The notes beneath the pieces are model-generated. The model worked only from the letters and a program-made list of their open reading frames with translations, made no database searches and was not told the DNA's origin. The translations under genes and the position numbers were made by a program. 64,000 nucleotides of DNA, taken from NCBI RefSeq assembly GCF_037975245.1, contig NC_092578.1, forward strand, positions 9,404,359-9,468,358, read 5' to 3'. The stretch comes from Apostichopus japonicus (taxonomy: Eukaryota > Echinodermata > Holothuroidea > Aspidochirotida > Stichopodidae). Shown piece by piece: positions 2,520 to 63,400 of this stretch (positions within the stretch are counted from its first letter, which is position 1; every line of letters starts with the position of its first letter).

Positions 2520-2963
2520 TAGCTGTGTAAAAGTAAGTGGGCTTCGATCTTAGCAGGATCTTCTTCACTGGCTGAATGACAAGTAACAGTAACAGAAGGT
2601 ACAAATACACGCACAGAATACAGACAATGAGCAGGGTGAACACAAAAGAGATAGATGTAAGAGGATTAGTAGACGAGGGATGGAGAGAAGAAAAACCCCA
2701 ACAGGGGTAAGAGGAGAGCTGGTAGGAGATTAACTGTATAGGGACAAAGAGAGGAATAAGGGAAGATGGTAGGGCATACACTGCAGAAGGAAAAAAGACA
2801 GGAAAGTGTGGAGAAAAGAGGTGGAAGAGAGCTAGTAGAAGAGGGGTGACAGAAGGCAAACGAGGGGTGGAGGGGGGGGAGCAGAAGAAAAGTTAGTCAT
2901 GTCCTTCCTGAAAGTTAAGCCCATGCATGGGTTGAGCAGTTCAAGGCGTTGAATCCATGCGTA
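2520..2963 (-). mobile_element. Penelope-like element, 3' part (split half)
   Basis: This GA-rich segment matches 59818-60145 in order: AATGAGC, GAACACAAA, AGATAGATGTAAG, GGATTAGTAGAC, GGATGGAGAGAAGAA and then TTAGTCATGTCCTTCCTG. In the other copy the sequence runs on into CTCTCTCTGCTGATTCG. Here that continuation is found only at 14842, on the far side of the 11.9-kb CACTA element. The segment is therefore the downstream half of a PLE whose GIY-YIG coding remnant lies at 14900-15283. It holds no intact reading frame. Confidence 0.75.
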
Positions 2964-2994
2964 CACTGTTAAAAATTTCTGTAAATTTACAGTT
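2964..2994 (+). repeat. CACTA left terminal inverted repeat
   Basis: It starts CACTGTTAAAAA and goes on with TTTCTGTAAATTTACAG. The right end read inward gives CACTGTTAAAAAAAATTCTG and then TTAAAATACAG. Match is exact for 12 bases, then imperfect to about 31 bases. Confidence 0.8.
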
Positions 2995-3029
2995 AATTCC
3001 TGTCGATTTTTACAGAAAAAGCCGGTTTT

Positions 3030-3361
3030 CTATATTTACATGTAAACGTCTGTTATTTTAACAGACGTTTTCTGTACAGCAAGTGGTTTACACAAAATTG
3101 TAGTATTTTTCCCTCCAAAGAAAATTTACAGGAAAATCCTGTAAAATTTTCCAGAATATGTCAGTTTTTAATATTTACATGTAAAATTCTGTGATTTTTA
3201 CAGACGTTTTATGTTACAGCAAGTGGTTTACAAAAAATTGTAGTATTTTTCCCTCCAATGAAAATTTACAGGATAATTCTGTAAAATTTTCCAGAATATG
3301 TCAGTTACATGTAAACTTATGTGATTTTTACAGACGTTATATGTGTCATGTACTTTACAGA
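3030..3361. repeat. CACTA left subterminal array (~130-140 bp unit)
   Basis: About 2.4 copies of a unit beginning TTTACATGTAAA start near 3036, 3176 and 3305. Each holds TTTTACAG / CTGTAAAATTTTCC words, a GCAAGTGGTTTACA block and a TTTCCCTCCAA block. CACTA elements usually carry such arrays as transposase-accessory binding sites. A T-rich run (about 3367-3389) follows. Confidence 0.75.
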
Positions 3362-4114
3362 ATAAGTTTTTTTTTTTTTTTTTTTTTTTGCAATCTAATG
3401 CATGTAAATTGGAATTTGAAGAGTGTTATACGAAAATATACTTGAAGGTGGAACACGTTACCAATATACAATGGTATACAACAAAATCCATTGTGCAGTA
3501 ACATTACCGTTTGGCAAAGAAAAGAATGAAATCCAACCATGAAGCTATTACCGATAGCTCCATGATCCAACCCACAATTACCAGTTAACTTTGTCCCTAC
3601 AGTCGTTTTCTGCCTTAGTGTTACATTTGAGCAACAACCCCCAACCCCGTGAGGCTCATCAATGACCCTTAATTATCCAGCGAACGAAACCAATGTGAAA
3701 GGTAACTTTGAAGGGTCTGTAGGTCAAATATGTGAAATCTAACCATTTAGAGTTTTAGAAACGAATTATTTGTAAATGCCTAACGTGTTAACTAATGAAA
3801 ACATAATTTTACAATAGATGGTACTGTTCCAATTGGTTTACCGTTTGTTTAAGGAGTATACAACTTCCGAAATCCTATCAAAACAATAACTGCTGTGAGC
3901 TGCCAAGAATACAATGCCCAGCCTTCAAGATGTAGTCTAATTTATTGTTATTTTATGTTAACTTGTATTGTCAGTAAAACGTGAACCGATGACAATTCCG
4001 TGTGCTCAATGTACGATCACTGGGTCACACACATGCAGCTTTTTATAGCTAAATGGGTCACCGAACGTATCAAAATGTTGTTAAATATGTCTAGTACAGT
4101 AAATGTCATTTCAT

Positions 4115-5036
4115 TCATCTGAACCGCCCCCCCCCCCCTTCAACCCCTCCTCCCATTCGACCCAACCGGTCTAACTCGATGATTGGCGTCAACGTGTCTG
4201 TAACAGCTATGACGTCTCGCGCACAGGCGGGAATTCTTTTGATACATTCTGGGCGGCTGCCGTTGGCTTTCCCGGAAAACTTGGCTACAGTCCAGCATGC
4301 AGTCACATGACCCAAGTTGGCGCGCGATGTCAGAACGTCCAGTACATGCTGCGCTGTTCTGTACATTATGATTGATCGCATCTCGCATTAACGTACGTAT
4401 GAAGTGTATAGATTGCACAATACAATACTACAGCGCTTCAAAGTACGTCTACACGAGAGGAAAACAACTGCCGTTGCTGTCCAGTAGGCTACGCACATTT
4501 CCACACCAGAACAGGACTTCATTGAGTACTTCGTCAGACGTGAGTGGTAAATTCATTTTAACCATATGCCACATTTGCATTATCATAATCAACAAAACAA
4601 CTTTGAAAGCCTGTCATAACAAAAAGTTAGTTTATATTTTAGTTCTTACCGTAGGGCCTAGCCTAGTACTACCGTTAGTTTGCCTATATAACGTAGACCA
4701 GACGAACGATAATTAAGAGTTAGACTATCACTATAGTAACACTGGCGCTGTATTAGACTACCTATCGTCACCCTACCGTGCATTTTGATATGTGCGTGTG
4801 AAGCTTAGCCTTGCTTCATGTTGTTTAGGTTAATATGATTTAAGGGTGGGTACATTGTAACTTGTAAGTTAATTGGTGCTGGTAGCCTGCATACATGGAT
4901 GATATTGGCTCTCATCTGGCATGTAATATGCAGTCTTTAGATTAGCCAAGGTTAATTAGACTTTTAGAACATGGCTGAATTTGAAAAGGCATAATTCATG
5001 TCTCTTTCAAATTATCAATAGTGAAGCAGGGCAGAA
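4115..5036 (+). promoter_or_regulatory. putative promoter / 5' UTR of the transposase gene
   Basis: A locally GC-richer block (about 4120-4400) with several CG dinucleotides precedes the transposase. A good splice donor, GAC|GTGAGT, sits at 4540, and an acceptor ending CAATAG at 5021 lies 15 bases before the ATG at 5037. This fits a short non-coding first exon spliced onto the coding exon. No TATA box is obvious. The intron is an inference from splice-site strings. Confidence 0.35.
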
Positions 5037-7770
5037 ATGTACACCTGTAAAATATGCAATACACTAACAGCTACTATCCGTGGCTATGTTGATCATGTGA
5101 GTTCCCATAGGAATATACCTCGAGTGAGATTTCCATGTTGTTTTGTTAATTGTGGCTATACCCTATCAACTTTTGCTGCAATGAAGATTCATGTGACTAG
5201 GCATCACCGCCATATTCAAAAGCAACAGCAGTTGCAGCAAAACTTCAGTCAGTTAACCTGTCATTGATTTGTATGTATGAAATCTGTCAAAAAGAACTCA
5301 CAGATCTGTCCTCATATTTGGCACACTTAAAAGCACATATTAGAAAAGGACAAGTTGTATCTTGTCCATATAAGAAGTGCAAAAGAGATTTTTCAAAAAC
5401 CAGTTCATTTACAGCACATTTGTCACGTCACAGAAACTGGTGAGCTGTAAACATTTTGGATAAATACAAACTTTCTACTCGTGATCATTGCTCTTTGGAT
5501 CAAGATATACCTCTAGACACTAACTGCTTTGATGTGTCTACCGAGACTGATAGATTTGTCATTGAAAATGACATAAGCTGTGATTTCGAAAACAGTAACA
5601 ATTGCCAAGGTAGGGTGCAAGAAACAGGTCAGTCTAGGCTTCAATTTCAACAAAATTTTGCCTTCTTTCTTCTGAAACTTCAGGCAAAACAACTTGTTCC
5701 ATCACAAACAATTCAAATGATTGTTGAGGAGCTTCAAACTATTCACAGTTTATGTCAACAAGATCAGGTTTTGAAAATTACTCAAAAATTGAGAGATGAG
5801 GGTTTAGCAGAAGAACGTATCAAATGTGTAGCCGATTATATGAATGAGATAGATGCATGGATTGCTATAGTTGTAAAGGAAAACTCAGGCGCAGCACTGT
5901 AGAAAAGAGTAATTTACTATAAATCAGCATTCAAGTTTGTTGCTCCAATTGCAATATCACTAGGGAGAGATTCAGCACAAAAAATGCAATACTATCATTA
6001 CATTCCAATCAAGGAGAGCATTCAATTGCTCCTTTCGGATGATTTTGTGTTGGGACAATGTCAAAGTAGGCACCAAAGTGAAGACTCATCTGTTCTTACT
6101 GACATAGTGGATGATACAGTTTTTAAAAAAAATAGTTTGTTTCAAAGTTGTGAAAGATCTTTGTCCATCATTCTCTATGAAGACTCATTTGAAATTGTAA
6201 ACCCACTTGGGTCGGCAAGAATAAAACACAAAATACTAGCAATGTACTTTACACTTGGAAACACCCAACCTGAGTACAGATCTGTTGTTGATGCAATGCA
6301 GCTTATGTTTTTTTGTAAAGAAGTTGATTTTAAGGTCTTTGGGCAGCAGAAGGTTTTTGAGAGAGTGATAAATGATTTGAAAACATTAGAGTAAGTTGGA
6401 ATAGAAACAAGTGACGGGGTGGTCTGGAAAGGTGCGCTGTCTTGTATATTAGGGGATAATTTAGGTTCCCATTGTATTGGGGTTTCATTGAGAGTTTTTC
6501 AGGAACTAACATGTGCCGCTACTGTTTAATAACTTCACATGACTTTAAATGTAACGCACCATATGCTGTTGGGAAGCCTAGAACCAAGGAGGAGTATGAT
6601 TCTTGCATTGCACACCTTGAAGATCATGAAGAAAATCATCATCAAGGAATTAAATTTAATTCATGTTTTAATTCTTTGAGGTATTTTCATGTGTGTGCAC
6701 CTGGTTTGCCACCATGCCTGGGGCACGACTTGTTTGAAGGAGTTGTTGATTACAATGTAGCCATGTTTATTCAATACTGGATTAAACAAAAACATTGGTT
6801 CACATATGCAGATTTGAATATAATGTTGGTACAGTTTAAATTTCAAGGACGCGATGGTACAGTTTAAATTTCAAGGACGCGATGCAAACAATAAACCTGC
6901 ATTTGTAAATTTATCAGGTAACCGCTTAGGTGGTCAAGCCGTTGAAAACTGGAACCTTTTGAGACTTCTTCCAATTATTTTGAGTGCATATGTTAAAGAT
7001 CATAATGACCTTGTATGGAGACTCTTTCTTCTTTTACGAGAAGTTGTTGAGTATGTGTGTTCTCCAAAGATTTCACATGAGCAACTTGCATATTTAAGGG
7101 TGATAATGGAGGAATACTTGACTGAGAGAAAACAACTCTTTGCTGATACTCCCTTCAGACCAAAACATCATTTCCTGAGCCACTATCCAGATTTAATTAT
7201 TAAGTTTGGACCATTAATGAGAGTGTGGACTCTATGCTTCGAAAGTAAGCACTCCTATTTCAAACGTTGTGCCAGATCTGCACAAAATTTCATCAATGTT
7301 ACACAGTCTTTAGCAAATCAACACCAGTACTTTCAAGCTTATAACAGCTCAGGGAAAATATATCCTGATAGATTGGTTATTGAAAATGCCACATCCCTCA
7401 ATATAGAATGCTTCATGCCTGAAATAAAGCATGCTTTGCAGGCAGCAAATGCAAAGTTTGATGATTCTGTTATCAGTGACAGAGTTAAGATGTTTGGCAC
7501 TTCTTACCAGAAGGGTTTCTTTGTAATATGTCAGTGTTCTGATACATGCTTTTCAAGTCTTAAATTGGGTTGCATTTTGTTTGTAGTTGTTGAAAGCCAA
7601 AAAGAACTATGTTTGAGTGCAAGCTCAATTATGGAACAACTAGGAGTATATAATGGGCCTTACAAAGAAACTTATAGTAAGCAAATGTGGCATATGAATT
7701 ATTCTGAATTGAGAAGGAACTAAAACCTTCACTTCCATTACTCAGGTCTGAGGTTCTCTTGTTAAAATGA
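5037..7770 (+). pseudogene. C2H2 zinc-finger / TNP2-like CACTA transposase, broken
   Basis: This intronless gene should excise and reinsert the element. The N-terminus has four C2H2 fingers: C-x2-C and C-x4-C types in 5037-5240, then C-x4-C...H-x3-H twice in about 5275-5440. A helical linker follows (5456-5900). The core keeps likely DDE residues: Asp in YEDSFEIVNPLGS (codon 6182), Asp in GDNLGSH (6455) and Glu in GHDLFEGV (6736). The C-x2-C pair after GDNLGSH (6514-6525) fits the cysteine insert of CMC-group transposases. In-frame stops lie at 5441 (TGA), 5900 (TAG) and 6392 (TAA). The frame shifts near 5262, 6478, 6857 and 7705. The shift at 6857 comes from a 28-bp tandem duplication. The last frame ends in TGA at 7768-7770, overlapping the ATG of the next gene. 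Domain identity comes from motif recognition, not a search. Confidence 0.85.
6829..6884 (+). repeat. 28-bp perfect tandem duplication in the transposase
   Basis: The 28 bases at 6829-6856 are repeated exactly at 6857-6884. Because 28 is not a multiple of three, the second copy shifts the frame. The residues VQFKFQGRD are read at the end of one frame and again at the start of the next. The exact identity suggests a recent event. Confidence 0.97.
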
Positions 7771-10700
7771 GCGTGTCAGAACAATCAGATGATACAATTT
7801 GTCTTGAAGATTTTGCTTTATCCATAATGCAGCATCTTCCTTCACTGCCACTTGAAATGGTGGACAAAGTAGTTGAACAGCTCCTGGCTGCTGGTGTGGA
7901 AAGTGTGTGCGATCTCAAGCTGATCACTGATGAGGACCTTTCCAGTGTACTGAAGCCAATACAGAGGAGAAAGCTGTTAATAGCATGGGCAAACAAGGCA
8001 GGTAAGCAGAAATATAATTGCACTTTCTAAATATGATTATCCTCCTTTTTTTGAGGAATGGAGAGGTGAAAGGGGAGGTTAAGAAGTAAGTTACAAGAGG
8101 AGATGGAAACATTTCTAAATAGTAAGTACATGTGATACACAGAAGTTTCTCTTATTGTCTAAGACAGTTGCTGGTACCACAAATTGAATAAGGAAACTGG
8201 TCTCATAGTACATCATTAGCATTTTTGTAATTCTCTAAAGAAAATTTTCTGGGTTAATTATTAGTATTATACATTAGATTTGAACTTTTTTTTAAGCAGT
8301 TTTCAAGTAGTGAGCAAATAGAAAACACCAGGTCAAACTAATGAAATGATACACCACATACCCAAACTAAAATATTTATCAACAAGAAAAGAGGAAACCC
8401 TTCTTTTCAATTCAAATTAAACATAGAACGTACGTTCTATGTTGTTTGTAGAGTATGATGAAGTTCATATGAGAGTATGACAAGGCTAAAGGTCACCTTG
8501 AAAAACAACCACTATGGGTTAGTATGGGGTACAGTACCTCTACTCTGGGATCATACTTGGCCCCCACTTTGGGGTCCAAATAAGCGGGCACTACGCAAAC
8601 GTCTGCAGTGACCAAATATCGCCATGGACTCAACAATTTGATATGTATGAGTGTTACTTTGCCCCAAAAACACTTGTATACCAATAATCAACAAAAATTG
8701 CCCCAATAATTTCACACTTTGGCTATACTGATTGAAAGATGCAGGGAACTGTGGCAATGGCTTGCTTTCCATACAGTATAAGAATACACCTCAACAACTT
8801 AACAAACTATGAAGCACGCCTTGTCCGATGCTTATGCACAAGGTCCATATGGCATACGGTACGGTGTGTACATGTGTACAAAGCCATTGCCTACGTCAAC
8901 AAACAAGCAGCGACTTAACCGAAACAGACCTGTCAGAGAATGCCCCTGTTGCCAATTGAAGATATGCTTGATTCGATAGATTGAGAGCTTGAGTGCTGCC
9001 CCTGTTTATTGTGTATATTATGTTATTTTATTGTGTTTATTGTGTTCTTTGAGTGTCCAAAAAACTAGTACCTTAATGCAATATATGTCTGTTATCAGGA
9101 AATAATTTATCAAGGTTGTTTATTCATTTCATATCATCTACTTTCATTGATGTGACATATTTTCATTCTTAAAGAAAAGTTGCTTGGATCAGCATCTTCA
9201 CAATCATCTGAACCCGACTCTGTGGCCAGTTCACCAGGATGCAGCTGGGTGCCCAGTTCAGCAGGATCAAGTCCAGCAGTGGTAATTGCAGATTGGGCAG
9301 AGTCATTTAAAGTTGATTGGGATAAAATGCCTAAAAGCCTCACAAAATCACTCCAGAAGAAACAGAGACCCACTCCCAAAGATCGGCGTGAAATGATCAG
9401 AATATTATGCAATGACATATATAATGAAAGTTGAGTCAAGTCCAGGACGAAAGCACCTTTCTATTATTGCACAGAAGATCGTTCGTGAGTTTCCAGAACC
9501 CTTTAAAGATGACATTGAAGGACTTGTTGTTGGTAGTGGATATGCATCCCTTCTTACACAGTTGGAAAACCGTATGAGCAATCTCAATAGAGGCAAATTT
9601 CACCTAAATGTTGGTTACCCCCTGTTTGTAGAGGGTGAACAGAATGAAGCACTAACAAAGAAGCGTAAACTCAGCACCTCACGCAGAGAAAAAAGACAGA
9701 TGACTTAAAGGTGATGCATGAACTTAACATATGGGATGACAATGAGTTTGTTTTCCTCATGAAAAATGTATTTCCAACCATCCGTGCCAAGATAAACAGT
9801 CAGCAAGTTCCTGTATGTGCTCTCCTTGATGAATATCCTTTCTTGTTTGAGGAGGTTGGGATGATGGGACATTTTGAAGATTTAGTGGGCATCAAACTGA
9901 AATCAGTTGAATTCAGAAGTTTCTGCAAGTGTCAGCAAAGAAGAAGAAGGAGGTGCAAAATATAATAGCTGATGTGGAGAGTGCTAAGAAGGAAAGTGGT
10001 GATCATTCCCCTGATGTTCCAGGACTTATTCTCCTCCTCCTCTGCAATCACCTTGGAGATAAATGGGATGATCTTTTCTACCTTGCAAAGGTAAGAAGAA
10101 GCTACCTTTATAAATCATTAAGCTTGTGAACTAGCACTATTTGTGAACTAGCACTATCAGAATAGCACTATTTGTCTGTGTTTTTCTCTGGTTTGTCGTT
10201 CTTACACTTACAGTTATGTAGATGTATTGGTCAAGTTGATTGACTTTATAACGATTTTCCTCTGCGATGTTCACTGTTTGTAGGTCAGCTGTAATTGTTG
10301 TGTATTGGGACTCTGAAGTCCAAAGTTCAGTACATCATATGCCATCAGTTGATTAAGATCTTCCCCATTGTCATCATTTTGATTTCAGGGATGCATATTG
10401 TCCCTCAGTTTCATTTATTTTATGTTATGCTTTGGAAGATACTACTGTTTTCCCAGATGGCATCTTGAATGTTTTGTCCCACATAATAAGATAAGTATTC
10501 CAAACAATTTTAATGTTCCTACATTTACATTATGTTCAGGAAACCAGTACTGTGCAGAATATTACTAAGGATCTGAAGTCAACATTCCCATGCATCATTA
10601 TTCAAGGTGAGAAGCATTTGGAGGATTTTGCTCTAATATGCATTTCCTCCAGTACATATACACTGCTCTTTTCCCCTTTTTGGTTTGGATGATAGTTGTA

Positions 10701-12618
10701 ACCTTTGAAATTTGTGATGGTGAGTATTTGTGCGTGTGTATGTATTTTACTGATGCCTACCTTGTAAACACAATTTCTCATGAAAGGAAGCTTAGATAGA
10801 TTTCATAGTTGGCATGTGGGTGTACCCGATAGAGTACAAGAAGCCTATTGTTTTTGGCAAAGGTCAAAGATCATTTGGGGTCAACAGAGGTGAAACTGTG
10901 AATACTTTGTAAACATGATATCTCAAGAAGGGAATCTTGGACAGATCTCATGTGGTATGTAGGTGTGTTCACTTGAATCAACAGTGGTCAAAATTTGAGA
11001 ATCTTTGATTAAAGAAACCTAGGAAGTTATATGTTGGCAAGTGTGTCAATGACACCTCATAGTGCACTATCACCTGTGGAAGACAAAGTCATGGGTCAAT
11101 CTGAGATTTAACTGGGAAAACTCTGTTACAGCATCAATTCAGCATGTATGTGTGCATTTGATGCTCAGCATGTAACATGAAACTCAAGAACTATAGCCCA
11201 TTTTTGACTTCATATGTGGTAAAAACATTTTGGTTGACCATTGCAACATTTTCAATGTCATTTTTGTGTTGCTGATCTAGGGTGCCTCAGTAAATCGATA
11301 TATCAGATAAACCGTTTTTTCTTTCATATCCACACCGACAAAAATGAAATCTGCCATCAACGAATATATCGAAATACATCCGAAGCAAACCTTGAATACC
11401 GGTAAAAATAATATTGAATAAAAAATAATGACCCATTAGTACACGCGAGTTGGAGTATATTCACGCTGCAACTGTTAAGTAGTGGTAGCAGTGGCATTAA
11501 CTTTAAATGAACATTCTCTTAATAGTTCTAATTGATATTTATTTTTTGCAGGTCCAAACATGTACACTGGAAGAAAGTTTATGTTGGCAGTAGATATGGT
11601 TATTGTTAATGACCACATTCAAACTTTTGAAAGTGCAATGATCATGCTGTTTGCAATGTTTTTCATCTAAAACATTGAGCATCCATCTGAAGGTGCAACT
11701 TTAATGGAGTTTATCCAGCGGTGAGTAGGCTGAAAGTACCCTAGTAATAGTTAACCATTGTTATTTTGTGTGGACATTCCCTTGACATGGAATGTAAGAG
11801 TGTATGCATATTATTAGCCACCTTCAAAAGATCAGCCGATCATAAAGGTACCAATATAGAAAAAAAATCAACAAATTGCAGTTAACTCAACTCCTGGGCA
11901 GATCATTGAAATAAATCATACTCTGTTCTCAGTTACAGCTGATTTACTTATTTTGTACTGTTTGTTGTGGTCCAAGAATAACAGCAGCTTTGGTAACCTT
12001 TTGTAAACATTGATGACCTTTACATAATTTTCACCAATGGAAAGTTAGTGTAAATAGTTGAATGGCATGTTTTATTATTTTGGAGAAGGGTGGGAATGTA
12101 TGAGTTTGGTTAATTACTGAGAACACCTTCACAATTTGTTACAACTATAGGGTATCAGCTTAAACTGAACAAAATTGAAATTAAAAGAGGATTCACAAAT
12201 TAGCTCTTCTTTTCAGATCATGATTTCCTAGAAAACTGTTGAATTCCAAAGGCTTGTAAATTAAGACAGGTAGCCATCTCAATTGCTTCTATCAACACCA
12301 GTGAGCACACATACAATTGGAAACTGAGTTGTGTCACATCACATATTTTGACCATATCTTACTATCATGTATGTCATACTGTAGTGTAAATTTGAGACCA
12401 AAGGAAATTAATTGTTAAATGGTTTAATAATTGCTAACTTATTTGAACTTTATGATTTCACAGTTCTAATTTTTGCTCCTCTTTGCAGCTGCTTTGTTGG
12501 ATTGAATCCAGAAAAGGGAAGAAAGACCCCCAAATCCAAGAAGAGCTATCCTGTCAACCCAAAAATTTTGGCTTTGGTTGGAAACCTGAAAGAATTTGAG
12601 TCAGATTGGACAGTCTAA
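7767..12618 (+). pseudogene. SAM-domain (SAMD3-like) second gene of the CACTA element, broken
   Basis: Five exons with GT-AG introns fit: 7767-8001, 9175-10090, 10540-10606, 11552-11720 and 12489-12618. All joins keep phase. Exon 1 encodes a SAM-like helical domain of about 70 residues (IMQHLPSLPLEMVDKVVEQL ... EDLSSVLKPIQRRKLL). Exon 2 has a Ser-rich linker, a KQRPTPKDRREMIRIL helix, then the blocks IIAQKIVREFPEPF, VVGSGYASL and YPFLFEEVGMMGHFEDL. The last exon has FVGLNPEKG and ends ESDWTV. These blocks recall SAMD3-like proteins annotated in fish. Frameshifts lie near 9430, 9690 and 9920, and an in-frame TAA at 11668-11670, so it is an unprocessed pseudogene. It starts inside the end of the transposase gene on the same strand, within the transposon ends. 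It may serve as the element's accessory DNA- or protein-binding factor, as the second gene of plant CACTA elements does; that role is inference. Confidence 0.78.
8420..8443. repeat. 24-bp perfect palindrome
   Basis: AACATAGAACGT is followed at once by its exact reverse complement, in intron 1 of the SAM-domain gene. It could be a dimer binding site or chance; nothing else marks it. Confidence 0.9.
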
Positions 12619-14010
12619 ATGCTTTTCAGGCACTTCCCATGATTCGTCACATTAGTCTGACAATTTGGTAACGTTGAATTATAAATCTAGGTCACTTAGT
12701 TGATTTAAGGTGTTCCTAGTTGAGAAAATGTTAGCGAGCCTCTTGAGCCTCCTGAACTGGAACCATTGACTCTCCAGCTACAGAGAAGTCTCATTTACAA
12801 ATGAACAGTTAAACATTTATACAGAGTTTAAACTATTGTGTTTAACTTTGTTGGTGGATATTTACAAGGTTTTACTTGTTGACAAACTTGTTACAGACTA
12901 TTATTTGGTGCTATTATGACACCTTTCCAATAACTCCATAAACTCTGAAACTCTTCCAAGCAGGTTCACAAATGTTAGAAAAGTTTTGAATCCATAATAG
13001 TTTCAGATGTCAAGTCATTCTGTTCATTTTGTTAATGCTATAAGCTTGATATCTAAATTATATTTTGTTGTCAAAATATAAAATCTCTATGCTAAATTTT
13101 AACATGAAATCTTTTCATAAAACTGCTCCTTCCACTCAAGCAGAAGCACAGGAATATAAGGACAACTTTTTTAATCATTTACGGGTACAAAGGTCAAATC
13201 ATTGTTTATATTTCTTTTGATCAGATGATTTACAATATCTTTGGTTAACAGATTAGTTAATCTTTATTCTTACCTATTGTAACATATCCTTGTCTTTAAC
13301 TTCCACTTTGAACTTTAAGAGCTAAAGAAGGTCACGAAAATTAGAAAAAGTATACAATCCTTATCAGCAATAGAGGAGTTACCACAGTTACAGGTATTAA
13401 TTTTCTGTGAACATTGATATGCCCATTAAAGTGAATATGGTATATGAGCGATATATTTAATACTGCTAGAACATTTAAAAATACATGAAATGAACATAGT
13501 TGTAATAAAGTTAAGTGAAGAATAGTGAAGACACCTAAGTTTCTGTGGTCACATAATACAGTGACCTTGAGTGAACTTTGCATACTTCAAGTGCATCTGT
13601 AAATAAGAGGGAAAGGAACTTTGTTGTAGAGCAATGAAAGGGCCAGGAACTAGCAGGTGTCAAAGCTTAGTGTTTTATGATCAGTCAATTGTGAAAACTT
13701 TCAGTGGCTGATCCAGGATTTCCTGAAGTGGCCGAAGAGACAAATATGGCCACATACAGACTTATCAGTATATTTCCAAACAATGAAAGTATCGTCTGTA
13801 TAACAAAACCTTTTCCAAAAGAAAGGCTGGGGCACCCAGCAAATACCCAGCCATCAATAAGAGATTGCCTTATGATGTTCAGTCTTATATATTACTTTAA
13901 AGGTTTTGACGTTCAAAAATATGTTTCAACAAGTTTTAAAGTTGTAAATAAAAGTTTCAGAGAACAATAAGTTGTTTTTTATTTTATAATCTCACTGATA
14001 ATAGTAATTC
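12619..14010. other. CACTA 3' non-coding region
   Basis: This follows the SAM-gene stop. I see no further exon. An AATAAA at 13947-13952 could end the transcript with a 1.3-kb 3' UTR. The open frame at 13704-13970 has no recognisable domain. Confidence 0.4.
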
Positions 14011-14019
14011 CATCTGACA

Positions 14020-14752
14020 GCCAATTTTACAGACAAAGACCTATTTATTGCAAGGAAAAAGACTATAGATAACATTAAAGACTAGACTTTACCTAAAAGA
14101 TACAGTAAATTAAAAGTCACAATACAGTTATTTTACAGAGAAAAAGACATACTGTATTTCAAGAAAAACTGTGTAAATAACCATTTCAGACTGTTTATTT
14201 TACATAGAATGTAGTGTAAAATAACGGCTATCATATAGTAATTTACGGATGAAAACTTTTATAATGCAAAGAAAAACTGTGAATTACGCTCTCATACTGT
14301 GTATTTAACATAGAATTCAGTGTAAAATTACGGTCGTCGTACAGTAATTTTACGGACAAAGACTTTTATAATGCAAAATAAAAACTGTATAATAACAGTT
14401 TAAACTGTTTATTTTACATAGAATATGGTGTAAAATAACGGTTGACGTACAGTGATTTTACGGACAGAAACTGTTATAATTGGGGGGAAAACTGTGTAAA
14501 TAACAGTTTCAGACTGTTTATTTTACATAGAATATGGTGTAAAATAACGGTTGACGTACAGTAATTTTACGGACAGAAACTGTTATAATTGGGGGAAAAA
14601 ACTGTATAAATAACAGTTTCAGACTGTTTATTTTACATAGAATATGGTGTAAAATAACGGTCGTCGTACAGTAAGTTTACGGACAAAAACTGTTATAATG
14701 AAAGAAATAAACTGTATAAATAACAGTTTTAGACTGTTTATTTTACATAGAT
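14020..14752. repeat. CACTA right subterminal array (~105-112 bp unit)
   Basis: The words CTGTTTATTTTACATAGAA, GTGTAAAATAACGGT and ACAGTAATTTTACGGAC recur about every 110 bases, with copies near 14192, 14299, 14405, 14513, 14621 and 14733. There are more diverged copies to the left. The unit differs from the left array, though both are rich in CTGT and TTTTACA words. Confidence 0.8.
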
Positions 14753-14807
14753 TATCTGCAGTTGGAAATAACAGACATTTCCTGGAAACTCTGCTGCCAG
14801 AGAAATT

Positions 14808-14838
14808 CTGTATTTTAACAGAATTTTTTTTAACAGTG
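14808..14838 (-). repeat. CACTA right terminal inverted repeat
   Basis: The sequence ends TTTTTTTTAACAGTG, the inverse of the left end at 2964, and is followed by the TA duplication at 14839-14840. Confidence 0.8.
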
Positions 14839-14840
14839 TA

Positions 14841-15699: not shown

Positions 15700-17054
<1,355 letters not shown>

Positions 17055-35420: not shown

Positions 35421-55324
<19,904 letters not shown>

Positions 55325-56565: not shown

Positions 56566-56690
56566 CTCAGTCCGACAAGTTTTCAGTCCGAAAAGTTTTC
56601 AGTCTGAAAATAAAATACACGTTTTCAGTCCGAAAATGAAATACACGTTTTCAGTCCGAAAATGAAATACACGTTTTCAGTTGGAGAATG
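56566..56690. repeat. MULE-like left TIR sub-repeats
   Basis: CAGTCCGA followed by AAGTTTTCAGTCCGAAAA and by ATACACGTTTTCAGTCCGAA recurs with a ~26-bp period, five times. Confidence 0.9.
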
Positions 56691-57050
56691 AAAGCATGCA
56701 GTTTTAATGCCATAATACCACCAATAAACAATGACAGCCCGAACTCGTAGTAAAGAAATCGATTGAATCTTTCGTATTATGTCTCACATCGCCGGTCTCA
56801 ACAAATACTTGGGACCCCTTAACAACTATCAGTTACAAACATATGTAATCCGTTCTTTGCTCCTTAATCTGCTTCCTGTATAGTCATGGTTTATTTGGTT
56901 CTAATTCCATCAATGCAATTTACACTTACCTAGCGTCATACTTTCATTGTGTTACATTTTGTACTTTTCATTCAACTGCCAAGTATTGCTGACGAAGGTC
57001 TCAATATATTTTCTAAAACTTTACTCCTTATTTGTCAGTTATGAGTCATA

Positions 57051-59519: not shown

Positions 59520-59810
59520 CTCCGACTGAGAACGTGGATTTTATGAGAAAGTGGATTTTATTTTCGGACTGAGAACGTGTCGGACTGAAAACTCGTTTTT
59601 TCGGACTGAAAACGTGTATTTTATTTTCGGACTGAAAACGTGTATTTATTTTCGGACTGAAAATGTGTCGGACTGAAACTCGTTTTTTTCGGACTGAGAA
59701 CGTGGATTGTATTTTCGGACTAAAAACGTTTTTTCGGAGTGAAAACTCGTTTTTACGGACTAAAAACGTGTATTTTATTTTCGGACTGAAAACGTGTCGG
59801 ACTGACAACG
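59520..59810. repeat. MULE-like right TIR sub-repeats
   Basis: About ten copies of TTTTCGGACTGAAAACGTG and variants, the inverse of the left TIR. The right array is more than twice as long as the left, so the TIRs have expanded unequally. Confidence 0.9.
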
Positions 59811-59817
59811 TGTACCC

Positions 59818-60440
59818 TAATGAGCGTGGTGAACACAAAGAGATAGATGTAAGGGGATTAGTAGACAAGGGATGGAGAGAAGAATGAAAGATAAAAACCA
59901 ACAGGGGAAGAGGATAGGTAGGAGATAAACAGTGGAGGGACAAAGAGAGGATTAAGGGAATGGGTAGGAAATAAACTGGAGAAGGACAACAACAGAAAAG
60001 TGTGGAGAGAAAAAGGGGTGGAAAAACTATGAGAAAAGGAGTAATGGGGGAGGGGGGCAAGGGGAGAAGGAGGGGGAATGAAGAAAAGTTAGTCATGTCC
60101 TTCCTGATTGTTGAGCCCATGAGGTTGGTGCGAAGGCGTTGCATTCACAACCTCTCTCTGCTGATTCGCACTAGCTCAGGACGGCTACCCAAGGATTCAA
60201 TCCCTTGGGCCTATAGAGACATGTCGTTAATGGTATGGTTGCATAGCTCCCAACTCTCGAGAAGGCAAATGCTGGTCCATGCCACGAATTGCCATCCTGG
60301 GGGTGGGGTAAATGGGGGGTGTCTCCCTCCCCTTTTTACTTTTTTTGGAATCCTGGTGATGCCTACATGTAAAATGGTGGCACCTAGAAAGGCTTTTGTC
60401 ACCCAAAATTTTCTGAGAAATATGCAATAAATTGAATAGT
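59818..60440 (-). mobile_element. second Penelope-like element, right half
   Basis: A GA-rich block is followed by TTAGTCATGTCCTTCCTG, CTCTCTCTGCTGATTCG and GGATTCAATCCC, the order that the first PLE shows only after its CACTA insert is removed. On the minus strand ELCNHTINDMSL (about 60245-60211) resembles the end of PLE endonucleases. Rest degenerate. Confidence 0.65.
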
Positions 60441-63400
60441 AGGTGATAATTCATTCTTGCCCGTGGCATGAAAATGTTCGCTGCTGAAATGAAATATAGC
60501 CTAATTTGAGGTTCAAATGATGATGTAAAGGAGGTTTTATACTCTATTATGCTAAATGCTAAAGAAATGATGGTTGCAAAGTCCAAATTTGATGCAATTA
60601 ATTTATGTACACTTGTCAATTACAATGCAGGTTATTGGGATGCTTGCGTGGGTCAGGGGCTTTGGGTGTTAGAATGTGGGTCCAACCCGCGAATTGTGGG
60701 TCAGTTGGGAGCTCTGTGGTTGGGAAGGTTAAAGTGTTCTCCAAAAAAAACCAAAAGATGAATGACCTTCGGCACAGGGGGAAACTGGACTCCTCCAGCT
60801 GCCTTTACTACATTTTACTGCATTACTACAAACATATGGTGGCTTCCACGCCAACTCTCGACCAGAGTATGCTGTATTGGCCCCAAATAAACCAGATATT
60901 CAAATATGGTTACCTTTGGTCAAAGTTTTGAAACTGGTTTTATTACCACCTTCCAGGAAATTTACCTCACTGGTACATTCAGGCATCTTAATCTTATGCT
61001 TTCAATTAGAATGCCTTAGAACAATTTGGAAAGTAAAGACCTCTAGGAACATATTAAATATTCTAGCAATTATAGCATGCTAAATTGGGGCCAATACTAC
61101 ATAGCCCACCTTGAAAATATCCTGTAACCTACTCTGCATAAACACTATCTAATATGAAAGAAATGCTTTGGTTAAAGTATGAATATGGTCACTTGAACAT
61201 TAAGAAATGCAAGTGACATAGTGGTAAGTTTTCCCTGCTCATGGTTATTGTAGTTGAACTCAATGTAAGAACTGTACAGATGCAATCAATGTGTTAAAAA
61301 TAAAAACATGTTACAATACTGACTTACCTAATTTTAGAATAAGCAATACAAACAATAGCAGGGCAGTGTTCCAAATACGGAATGCAAGGACATACCCAAA
61401 TAAGGCTAGGAGACGCCATGCCTCCATTGTGGAACTTCTCCATGATAAGTATAGCAGCTTTACATGCAAAAGAACTTTTGCCAAAACTTCAGAAGACCCT
61501 ATAATGTCCCCGGCATTTCAAACAGCTCCATCTGCCACTATCTCCATCTGCCACTGGGCCTGACTGGGGTTCTCATGAGAGCACTGAATGAACTGTTTTA
61601 TCACTACTAGCTGCAAGTTAGAGTACCTCTTCAACACTCTATGACATCACAAAATGTTAAATTGATCTCACACAATACAAAATAAAGACAAGTTATCCTG
61701 TACCAACAATAAATAACCCAAGATCAATGTCACATTAGTTACTGGTATGACTGAACAAGCTACAGTAATTAAAAAGATCAGATATTACTATCATGGAAAG
61801 CCAAATAGTGTACAATAAAGTATGTAGTGAAACCAATATTCAATCATTTAGTTTATTAATATGACACAGTTGTAACTTTGATGACATCAATTATGTAGTT
61901 TACTTACACTATGAATGAACATGCAAATCAATGATAAATACTACAGAAAGGAGAAGGATACATAATGCACTGAATGCAATAATCAATGTTTGACACCATG
62001 GAGAAGATAAATTCTTATGATACATTGCACTAGCTTAGTAACTTCATTTCACTGAGACACCATGTTTGTTGTTGTCTGTTATGGTACAGTTTGTTCAATT
62101 GTCTTGAAGCCTTGTGATATCTAAATTCTGGATACTTGTTACTCCCATTGTCCACTCTTGTGTCCTTGATGAATGGTATTTAAATACTGTAAGCTGAGAA
62201 ACTGCTTTGACATCAGCTATTTCAAAATTGTCCGTATCCATGTTAACAACGTTCACTATGCAAATCCATAGCTTTCACTGGAGAACAAGAAATATGACAA
62301 TCATCTTACGTAAAGTAGAGAAGCACACATTTATTAATGAAACAATCCAACACAAATACTTCCAGTTCCAACCCTTATATCTGCTTGCAAAACATCCATC
62401 ATGCCATAACGCAATGCTGTGCTGTACTGTTCCTCTAAAGGATGTTCTGTACATCTGTAATGTGAAATGAAAATGGAAAAAAGACATATTTAAGGCATTG
62501 TGTGAGGACAGAAGTGTCACAAAGATATACCTGTTCAAATGATTTTCCAAGATATGATTTATTTGATTTTAATAGCAAAAGAGACATTCAGGCTCATGGC
62601 CAAGGTAACTGGGTTGGAGCCAGCATAAATGTTATGTTTGTTTATTCACTGAGATTGTAACTTGCATTCATTGTAATAATTAAAAATTATTGTTCAAATC
62701 TGGGTGAAAGTAGACCCCTTAATGATGCCCCTAACATGTTAAACTAAAAATATAGCTCACACTCAAAATTTGCCAAAAATGTCAATGTCTTTGCTGATAT
62801 GAAACTATATGCACATGACAACCTGATCAGATGACAACTACAGTATAGGCAGTTAAGAGTAACTATCTTTAAGCAGTGCAAGTACTGTACTGTATGTACG
62901 AATGATGCCACATCATCATGAAACATTAAAAGAAAACATAAAGAGAAAAGAATAAATGTGCAATTTTTTAACACAAACTGCTTCAGACAGGTAGGTAGCA
63001 CATTCTACAAGATTGGTAAATGTCTTTATTTTTCAGAGATAAGGAAAAATACTACAGGTACTGTTATCATTAACTTGTGGGGTTTGAACATTTTTGGGTC
63101 TCTCACATTTACAGACCTCCAGTGGCTGTATTAGCACCATATTTAGCACTACATGTCTATGTCATTAATATAACATAATACAATAAATGTATAAATGTGT
63201 CCAATGTCCTAAATCTGGTTAGTCATATACAGTCCTACAGTAGTAGACTGCAGACCTAGTTAAAATGTAGACTTATTTACAGCATGGAATGGTTACAGTA
63301 TGTACATAAAAAAATTACCAGTCTCCATTGGGGTATAGCTGCTGGAGTGCATTGCTGCATCAGCCTCTGTTGGGCATGGCCTTTCATTGAGGAACTGGTG

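Follow-up and report, generated by a model that had tools for sequence, protein, structure and literature searches.

Plant En/Spm transposons carry subterminal repeats, as does the holothurian element described here, and in plant Spm the protein TNPA acts at the element ends. Both TNPA and TNPD are essential to Spm, with TNPD stabilising TNPA on the DNA, and tandem open reading frames are found in Spm TnpD as well as in clone B4 of SmTRC1 (PMC1636069). The literature on CACTA-related elements of animals goes back to 2006 and includes 2-bp duplications recognised by comparison with uncut repeats (PMC1636069); the motifs shared by CACTA transposases and RAG1 have also been published. The present element occupies positions 2964-14838 (11,875 bp) of a 64-kb window, by which we mean the whole stretch of 64,000 nucleotides analysed here (Apostichopus japonicus, contig NC_092578.1, positions 9,404,359 to 9,468,358 of the forward strand). 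It has two intact ends and two genes on the + strand, both of them broken. In view of the published animal elements with 2-bp duplications, it is of a kind already known. We read it, with a probability of about 0.92, as a DNA transposon of the EnSpm/CACTA-like (CMCT) group, once autonomous and moving by cut-and-paste but now decayed. Both of its genes are inactivated and the copy is dead, so that the word "complete" in the initial annotation holds for the ends and for the set of parts, not for a working element.

Among described systems, SmTRC1 and the other animal TRC elements (DeMarco et al., 2006; PMC1636069) share with this element an animal host, a CACTA-type transposase, a tandem-repeat region, a 2-bp duplication (presumed here) judged against uncut paralogous repeats, and two tandem open reading frames, which for SmTRC1 are in one cloned transcript. 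SmTRC1, compared here by its published description and not by protein sequence, is ~4.5 kb long with a 54-bp inverted repeat starting CCC, whereas the A. japonicus element is 11.9 kb long, has 12-bp CACTG ends and a spliced gene 2. Plant En/Spm elements likewise have CACT ends, a transposase with a second protein, and tandem open reading frames (PMC1636069, PMC4158355), but their duplication is of 3 bp (PMC4158355) in place of the TA seen here. The C2H2 fingers and the BAH-like tail of gene 1 are features of its animal relatives, unlike plant En/Spm. ESTA (PMC12730594), which we liken to the element by description only, agrees in its TA duplication (presumed here), C(2)C/H(3-4)H motifs and RAG1-like transposase and differs in being fungal and in carrying TET/JBP genes. 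ProtoRAG has 5-bp duplications (PMC8289069) against 2 bp here. The gene-1 core has no sequence-level match to RAG1, ProtoRAG or Transib in PDB, and no resemblance of gene 2 to RAG2 is demonstrated.

The boundaries are those that had been annotated. The terminal inverted repeat CACTGTTAAAAA agrees at 12/12 positions between the ends at 2964 and 14838, occurs once per strand in the window, and follows the CAC..GTG (CA..TG) rule for ends of the EnSpm/CACTA-like CMCT clade (PMC12730594). Further inward the ends match at 14/20 and 16/30 positions (ungapped). By themselves the ends are modest evidence, because 200 Markov (dinucleotide) simulations of the window gave a mean of 0.51 perfect 12-bp inverted pairs starting with CACT and lying 0.5-20 kb apart, or 0.06 with matching 2-bp flanks. 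They become strong evidence because the joined flanks align through the junction, in one piece, to an uncut paralog within the window (316/407 columns identical, 78%, with 35 gaps). Cutting the element out thus restores a continuous repeat, as had been proposed. The flanking trinucleotides, GTA and TAG, exclude a 3-bp duplication; only 2 bp (TA/TA) match, at this one locus, within the 2-5 bp of the CMCT clade, and a 5-bp duplication of the ProtoRAG type was not found at the flanks. Since the paralog differs at the exact site, it is by itself no proof of the TA duplication, and of the annotated duplication the TA on both sides stands while the duplication is presumed. The target appears to be an old degenerate repeat copy into which the element inserted at TA. 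The right flank contains, antisense (minus strand), a GIY-YIG-like trace (E 0.011; score 16.4 bits, below the cut-off of 22.6; from a query piece joined by hand across a frame break); it gives weak support to the label "Penelope-like" that the repeat had received, fitting it without proving it. In the paralog, about 500 bp of other sequence at 60205-60718 are followed from 60719 by a 26-bp match to the right flank (25 identical), which suggests a second, separate insertion or a rearrangement.

Subterminal repeats, expected of this clade, are present at both ends, and the arrays described in the initial annotation were recovered as a 140-bp unit repeated 2.3 times on the left (2983-3306) and a 110-bp unit repeated 5.5 times on the right (14160-14755). 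Counted on either strand, the word TGTAAAA occurs 6 times in the left arm (2964-3380), 12 times in the right arm (14001-14838) and twice in the intervening 10.6 kb, with 23 further sites in the window outside the element; 0/500 simulations for each arm reached these arm counts. CTGTWAAA, a word containing the terminal CTGTTAAA, is found 7 times on the left, 4 times on the right and once between (again 0/500), and the shorter CTGTWAA 12, 4 and 7 times, the right-arm count of 4 being reached in 4/500 simulations. Because tandem copies are non-independent, the arrays show shared words and not proven binding sites. Elsewhere in the window, a stretch at 23255-23426 matches its own reverse complement, and CACTGTT words cluster in it in either orientation; it is perhaps a fold-back repeat.

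Read through from 5037 to 7720, gene 1 encodes C2H2 zinc fingers and a transposase. Its lesions are two shifts of frame, one in the interval from about 5213 to 5264 and one near 6470-6481, and stop codons at 5441, 5900 and 6392; there is also a 28-bp tandem duplication at 6827-6882. The stops are not in introns, as one tblastn alignment to the homolog P0002 spans all three, and better-preserved copies exist, as the near-identical P0001 (98% identity over 63% of the query) has an open reading frame where covered. Homologs numbered 409, of which 120 were listed; 58 of the listed sequences were aligned and 41 of those realigned. Seven residues, D384, D475, E728, C495, C498, H703 and H708 in P0002 numbering, are invariant in 41/41 and present in the window. 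They correspond to the acidic triad of the CMCT clade, with C(2)C and H(3-4)H motifs between the second D and the E, and, judged from sequence, the three acidic residues would be the catalytic ones. The predicted BAH-like region ends about 20 residues short of that in P0002; this tail may be related to plant DUF4216. Pfam Transposase_21 matches 10/41 homologs up to E 5 (best 3e-05) and 4/9 slices of the gene-1 core (best 8.9e-06). The commonest Pfam match among the 41 is FOXP-CC (33/41, best 2.9e-06), which, where placed, falls in the zinc-finger region and is under the cut-off. NCBIfam gave no match for 4 proteins at E 0.1, and no relatives were found in GTDB genome contigs with gene 1 as the query, in plasmids with gene-1 DNA (near mode), or in viral contigs queried with the alignments of both genes. 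An Rfam search of the window at gathering scores returned 0 matches.

Gene 2 combines a SAM-like N-terminus with a conserved core. It is broken by frameshifts at about 9420, 9681 and 9911-9923 and by a TAA stop at about 11668, and ~18 residues of P0121 are missing near 9681. Relatives at 84-88% identity belong to A. japonicus, where the clusters P0121 and P0123 comprise 41 and 17 member sequences, isoforms or duplicate records perhaps being counted among them. Pfam has no family for gene 2, and no family model of Pfam or NCBIfam matched it. By sequence, just 3 matches in PDB were obtained for gene 2 (E 4-5), and in another search one gene-2 N-terminus had a best E of 0.039; Foldseek with the gene-2 model gave 16 matches up to E 10 and none at 0.001, and VIA on this model had an effective coverage of residues 11-86 only. 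No result supports the idea that gene 2 is related to vertebrate SAMD3. In P0152, a gene-2 homolog from Frankliniella fusca named DNA fragmentation factor, a CIDE-N domain (E 1.6e-05, above the cut-off) takes the place of the SAM-like region. Either the modules were truly exchanged or a host gene and a transposon were fused in annotation, and P0152 is a lead only. In literature searches that did not extend to Repbase Reports, where an earlier description may exist, we found no published link of the gene-2 family or of the BAH-like tail to CACTA elements.

Several results weigh against reading the element as an EnSpm/CACTA-like transposon. The window protein of gene 1 has no match to Transposase_21 up to E 1, and of 10 homologs one matches it at E <=0.01 (P0022, 23.8 bits against a cut-off of 28.6); the label "TNP2-like" thus holds by way of the relatives, with their invariant DDE, C(2)C and H(4)H residues, and not for the window protein itself. 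The predicted fold of the gene-1 transposase does contain the RAG1-like core of ProtoRAG and Transib, but Foldseek gives moderate TM-scores against RAG1 (0.33-0.37, normalised by query length), and a sequence-profile search of PDB does not reach RAG1 from gene 1: the core gave 2 matches (E 0.81-0.83) and another search 108, of which the best 60 are nearly all zinc fingers. Published clustering (PMC3985635) separates Transposase_21 and RAG1 into different clades. No DNA-binding fold is demonstrated for gene 2, the flanks do not show the 3-bp duplication of plant CACTA elements, and no second copy of the ends appeared in a self-comparison of the window (E 1e-5, matches >=60 bp). Taken by itself, the left flank can be aligned no further than 2925, which leaves 38 bp before the element; the joined alignment extends this flank, with gaps, to about 2953, and the insertion point is not resolved to the single base. 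The early stop of the left-flank alignment, together with the frequency of simulated end pairs, would favour ends that are chance inverted words next to an unrelated insertion or deletion mistaken for an empty site. We give this a negligible probability: the end pair brackets a transposase gene and has arrays immediately inside both ends, the right flank by itself aligns from the 5th base outside the element, and the joined alignment crosses the junction. An origin in another CMCT lineage than EnSpm proper, for example as an animal counterpart of ESTA, deserves more attention but is still improbable. It would suit the TA duplication and the weak Pfam tnp2 matches of the gene-1 homologs, since ESTA is named for its TA duplications and was recognised through HHpred similarity to RAG1 (PMC12730594, section 3.1.6), and since placement in EnSpm rests there on CAC..GTG ends together with 3-bp duplications. 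Yet ESTA was described from fungi (PMC12730594), 2-bp direct repeats are likewise known from the CACTA relatives of S. mansoni, Aedes and Tribolium (PMC1636069), and the CACTG ends agree with CAC..GTG.

The two-gene unit of the initial annotation was confirmed, as both genes lie between the ends on the + strand, with the gene-2 ATG 43 bp past the gene-1 stop. The same order recurs in two other gene models, the only joined cases recognised by eye among 28/33 gene-2 sequences. The fish gene model P0150 (1180 residues) has gene 1 in its residues 4-709 (43% identity to P0002) and, after it, gene 2 in residues 713-1180 (28% identity to P0123); in P0153 of A. japonicus, a gene pair other than that of the window, a stretch of 193 residues (97% identity to P0002) is joined to one of 93 residues (99% identity to P0123). 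Even if the gene models were wrongly joined, the genes would be neighbours on one strand. That gene 2 is a captured or neighbouring host gene, carried by chance in one copy, could be argued from its want of a Pfam family and from P0152, which indicates that annotation can fuse host sequence to that of an element. It is very unlikely given the unchanged order in fish and in a different A. japonicus pair, the position of both genes inside the ends, and the size of the gene-2 clusters, which is as expected of a repeat with the proviso on isoforms and duplicates made above.

With the ends, the insertion site, the arrays, both genes, the conserved motifs and the gene pair in two other gene models in hand, a mechanism for the EnSpm/CACTA-like element can be proposed. 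Gene 1 would be a RAG1-fold DDE transposase that cuts at the CACTG ends and inserts at TA. Gene 2 is probably expressed from the gene-1 transcription unit, because its ATG follows the gene-1 stop so closely, and an acceptor-like CAG ending at 7745, shortly before that ATG, makes alternative splicing of a single gene-1/gene-2 transcript plausible. The likeliest target of the accessory protein is the subterminal arrays, which it may have bound as an assembly formed through its N-terminal module; it would also have helped to pair the ends, like TNPA in plant Spm. We consider the chances of this role of gene 2 evenly balanced. More doubtful, although possible, is its extension to animal CACTA elements at large, which would have a conserved, undescribed accessory family (in cnidarians, arthropods, echinoderms and fish) with an array-coating core and an exchangeable self-assembly module, SAM-like or, in one thrips, CIDE-N, alongside a BAH-tailed RAG1-fold transposase paralleling RAG1/RAG2. 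If true, the system would parallel RAG1 with PHD-bearing RAG2, because its RAG1-fold transposase ends in a BAH-like chromatin-reading domain: a RAG-type cutter, a chromatin reader and a partner protein would have come together in separate evolution.

The locus offers an end-to-end anatomy for a group of transposons whose proteins are called "uncharacterized protein" among the named matches. Two such families are brought together in one mobile unit, and on this basis many of the genes predicted in animals could be identified as parts of transposons. The accessory gene, whose family is unnamed and is also joined to a related transposase in the fish gene model, is probably the more interesting part of the element. 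It is a concrete candidate for the animal equivalent of TNPA. For the question of how the V(D)J recombinase arose, the RAG1-like fold predicted for an animal CACTA transposase supplies a structure to compare with.

Table. Features of the element and of its uncut paralog in the 64-kb window
Feature	Position	Strand	Basis or remark
Left TA, presumed copy of 2-bp target-site duplication	2962..2963	.	3-bp duplication excluded
Left terminal inverted repeat CACTGTTAAAAA	2964..2975	+	12/12 against reverse complement of right end
Left subterminal array, ~140-bp unit	2983..3344	+	Rich in CTGTWAAA/TGTAAAA words
Gene 1, EnSpm/CACTA-like DDE transposase with N-terminal C2H2 zinc fingers, broken	5037..7723	+	Read-through; tblastn against homologs
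First presumed catalytic Asp (P0002 D384)	6182..6184	+	D in 41/41 homologs
Second presumed catalytic Asp, GDNLG motif (P0002 D475)	6455..6457	+	D in 41/41
C(2)C motif CRYC (C495, C498)	6514..6525	+	41/41 homologs
H(4)H motif (H703, H708)	7166..7183	+	41/41 homologs
Presumed catalytic Glu (P0002 E728)	7241..7243	+	E in 41/41 homologs
C-terminal region matching predicted BAH-like part of P0002 (residues about 770-897)	7352..7723	+	
Gene 2, five coding exons, SAM-like N-terminus and conserved core, broken	7767..12618	+	GT/AG reading; tblastn against P0121/P0123
Gene 2 exons	about 7767-8001, 9175-10090, 10540-10606, 11552-11720, 12489-12618	+	
Right subterminal array, ~110-bp unit	14023..14755	+	
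Right terminal inverted repeat, reverse complement of CACTGTTAAAAA	14827..14838	-	12/12 with left end
Right TA, presumed copy of target-site duplication	14839..14840	.	Matches left TA
Uncut paralog of target site	59819..60204	+	Joined flanks align, 407 columns, 78%

Other repeats were seen in the window outside the element. A long TA-rich microsatellite at 16249-16593 translates into repeated Tyr-Ile in several frames, minisatellite-like tandem repeats cluster at 36599-37377, and a short tandem repeat (CGGACTGAAAACGTG-like) is present in inverted copies 3 kb apart, at 56567-56693 and 59544-59813.

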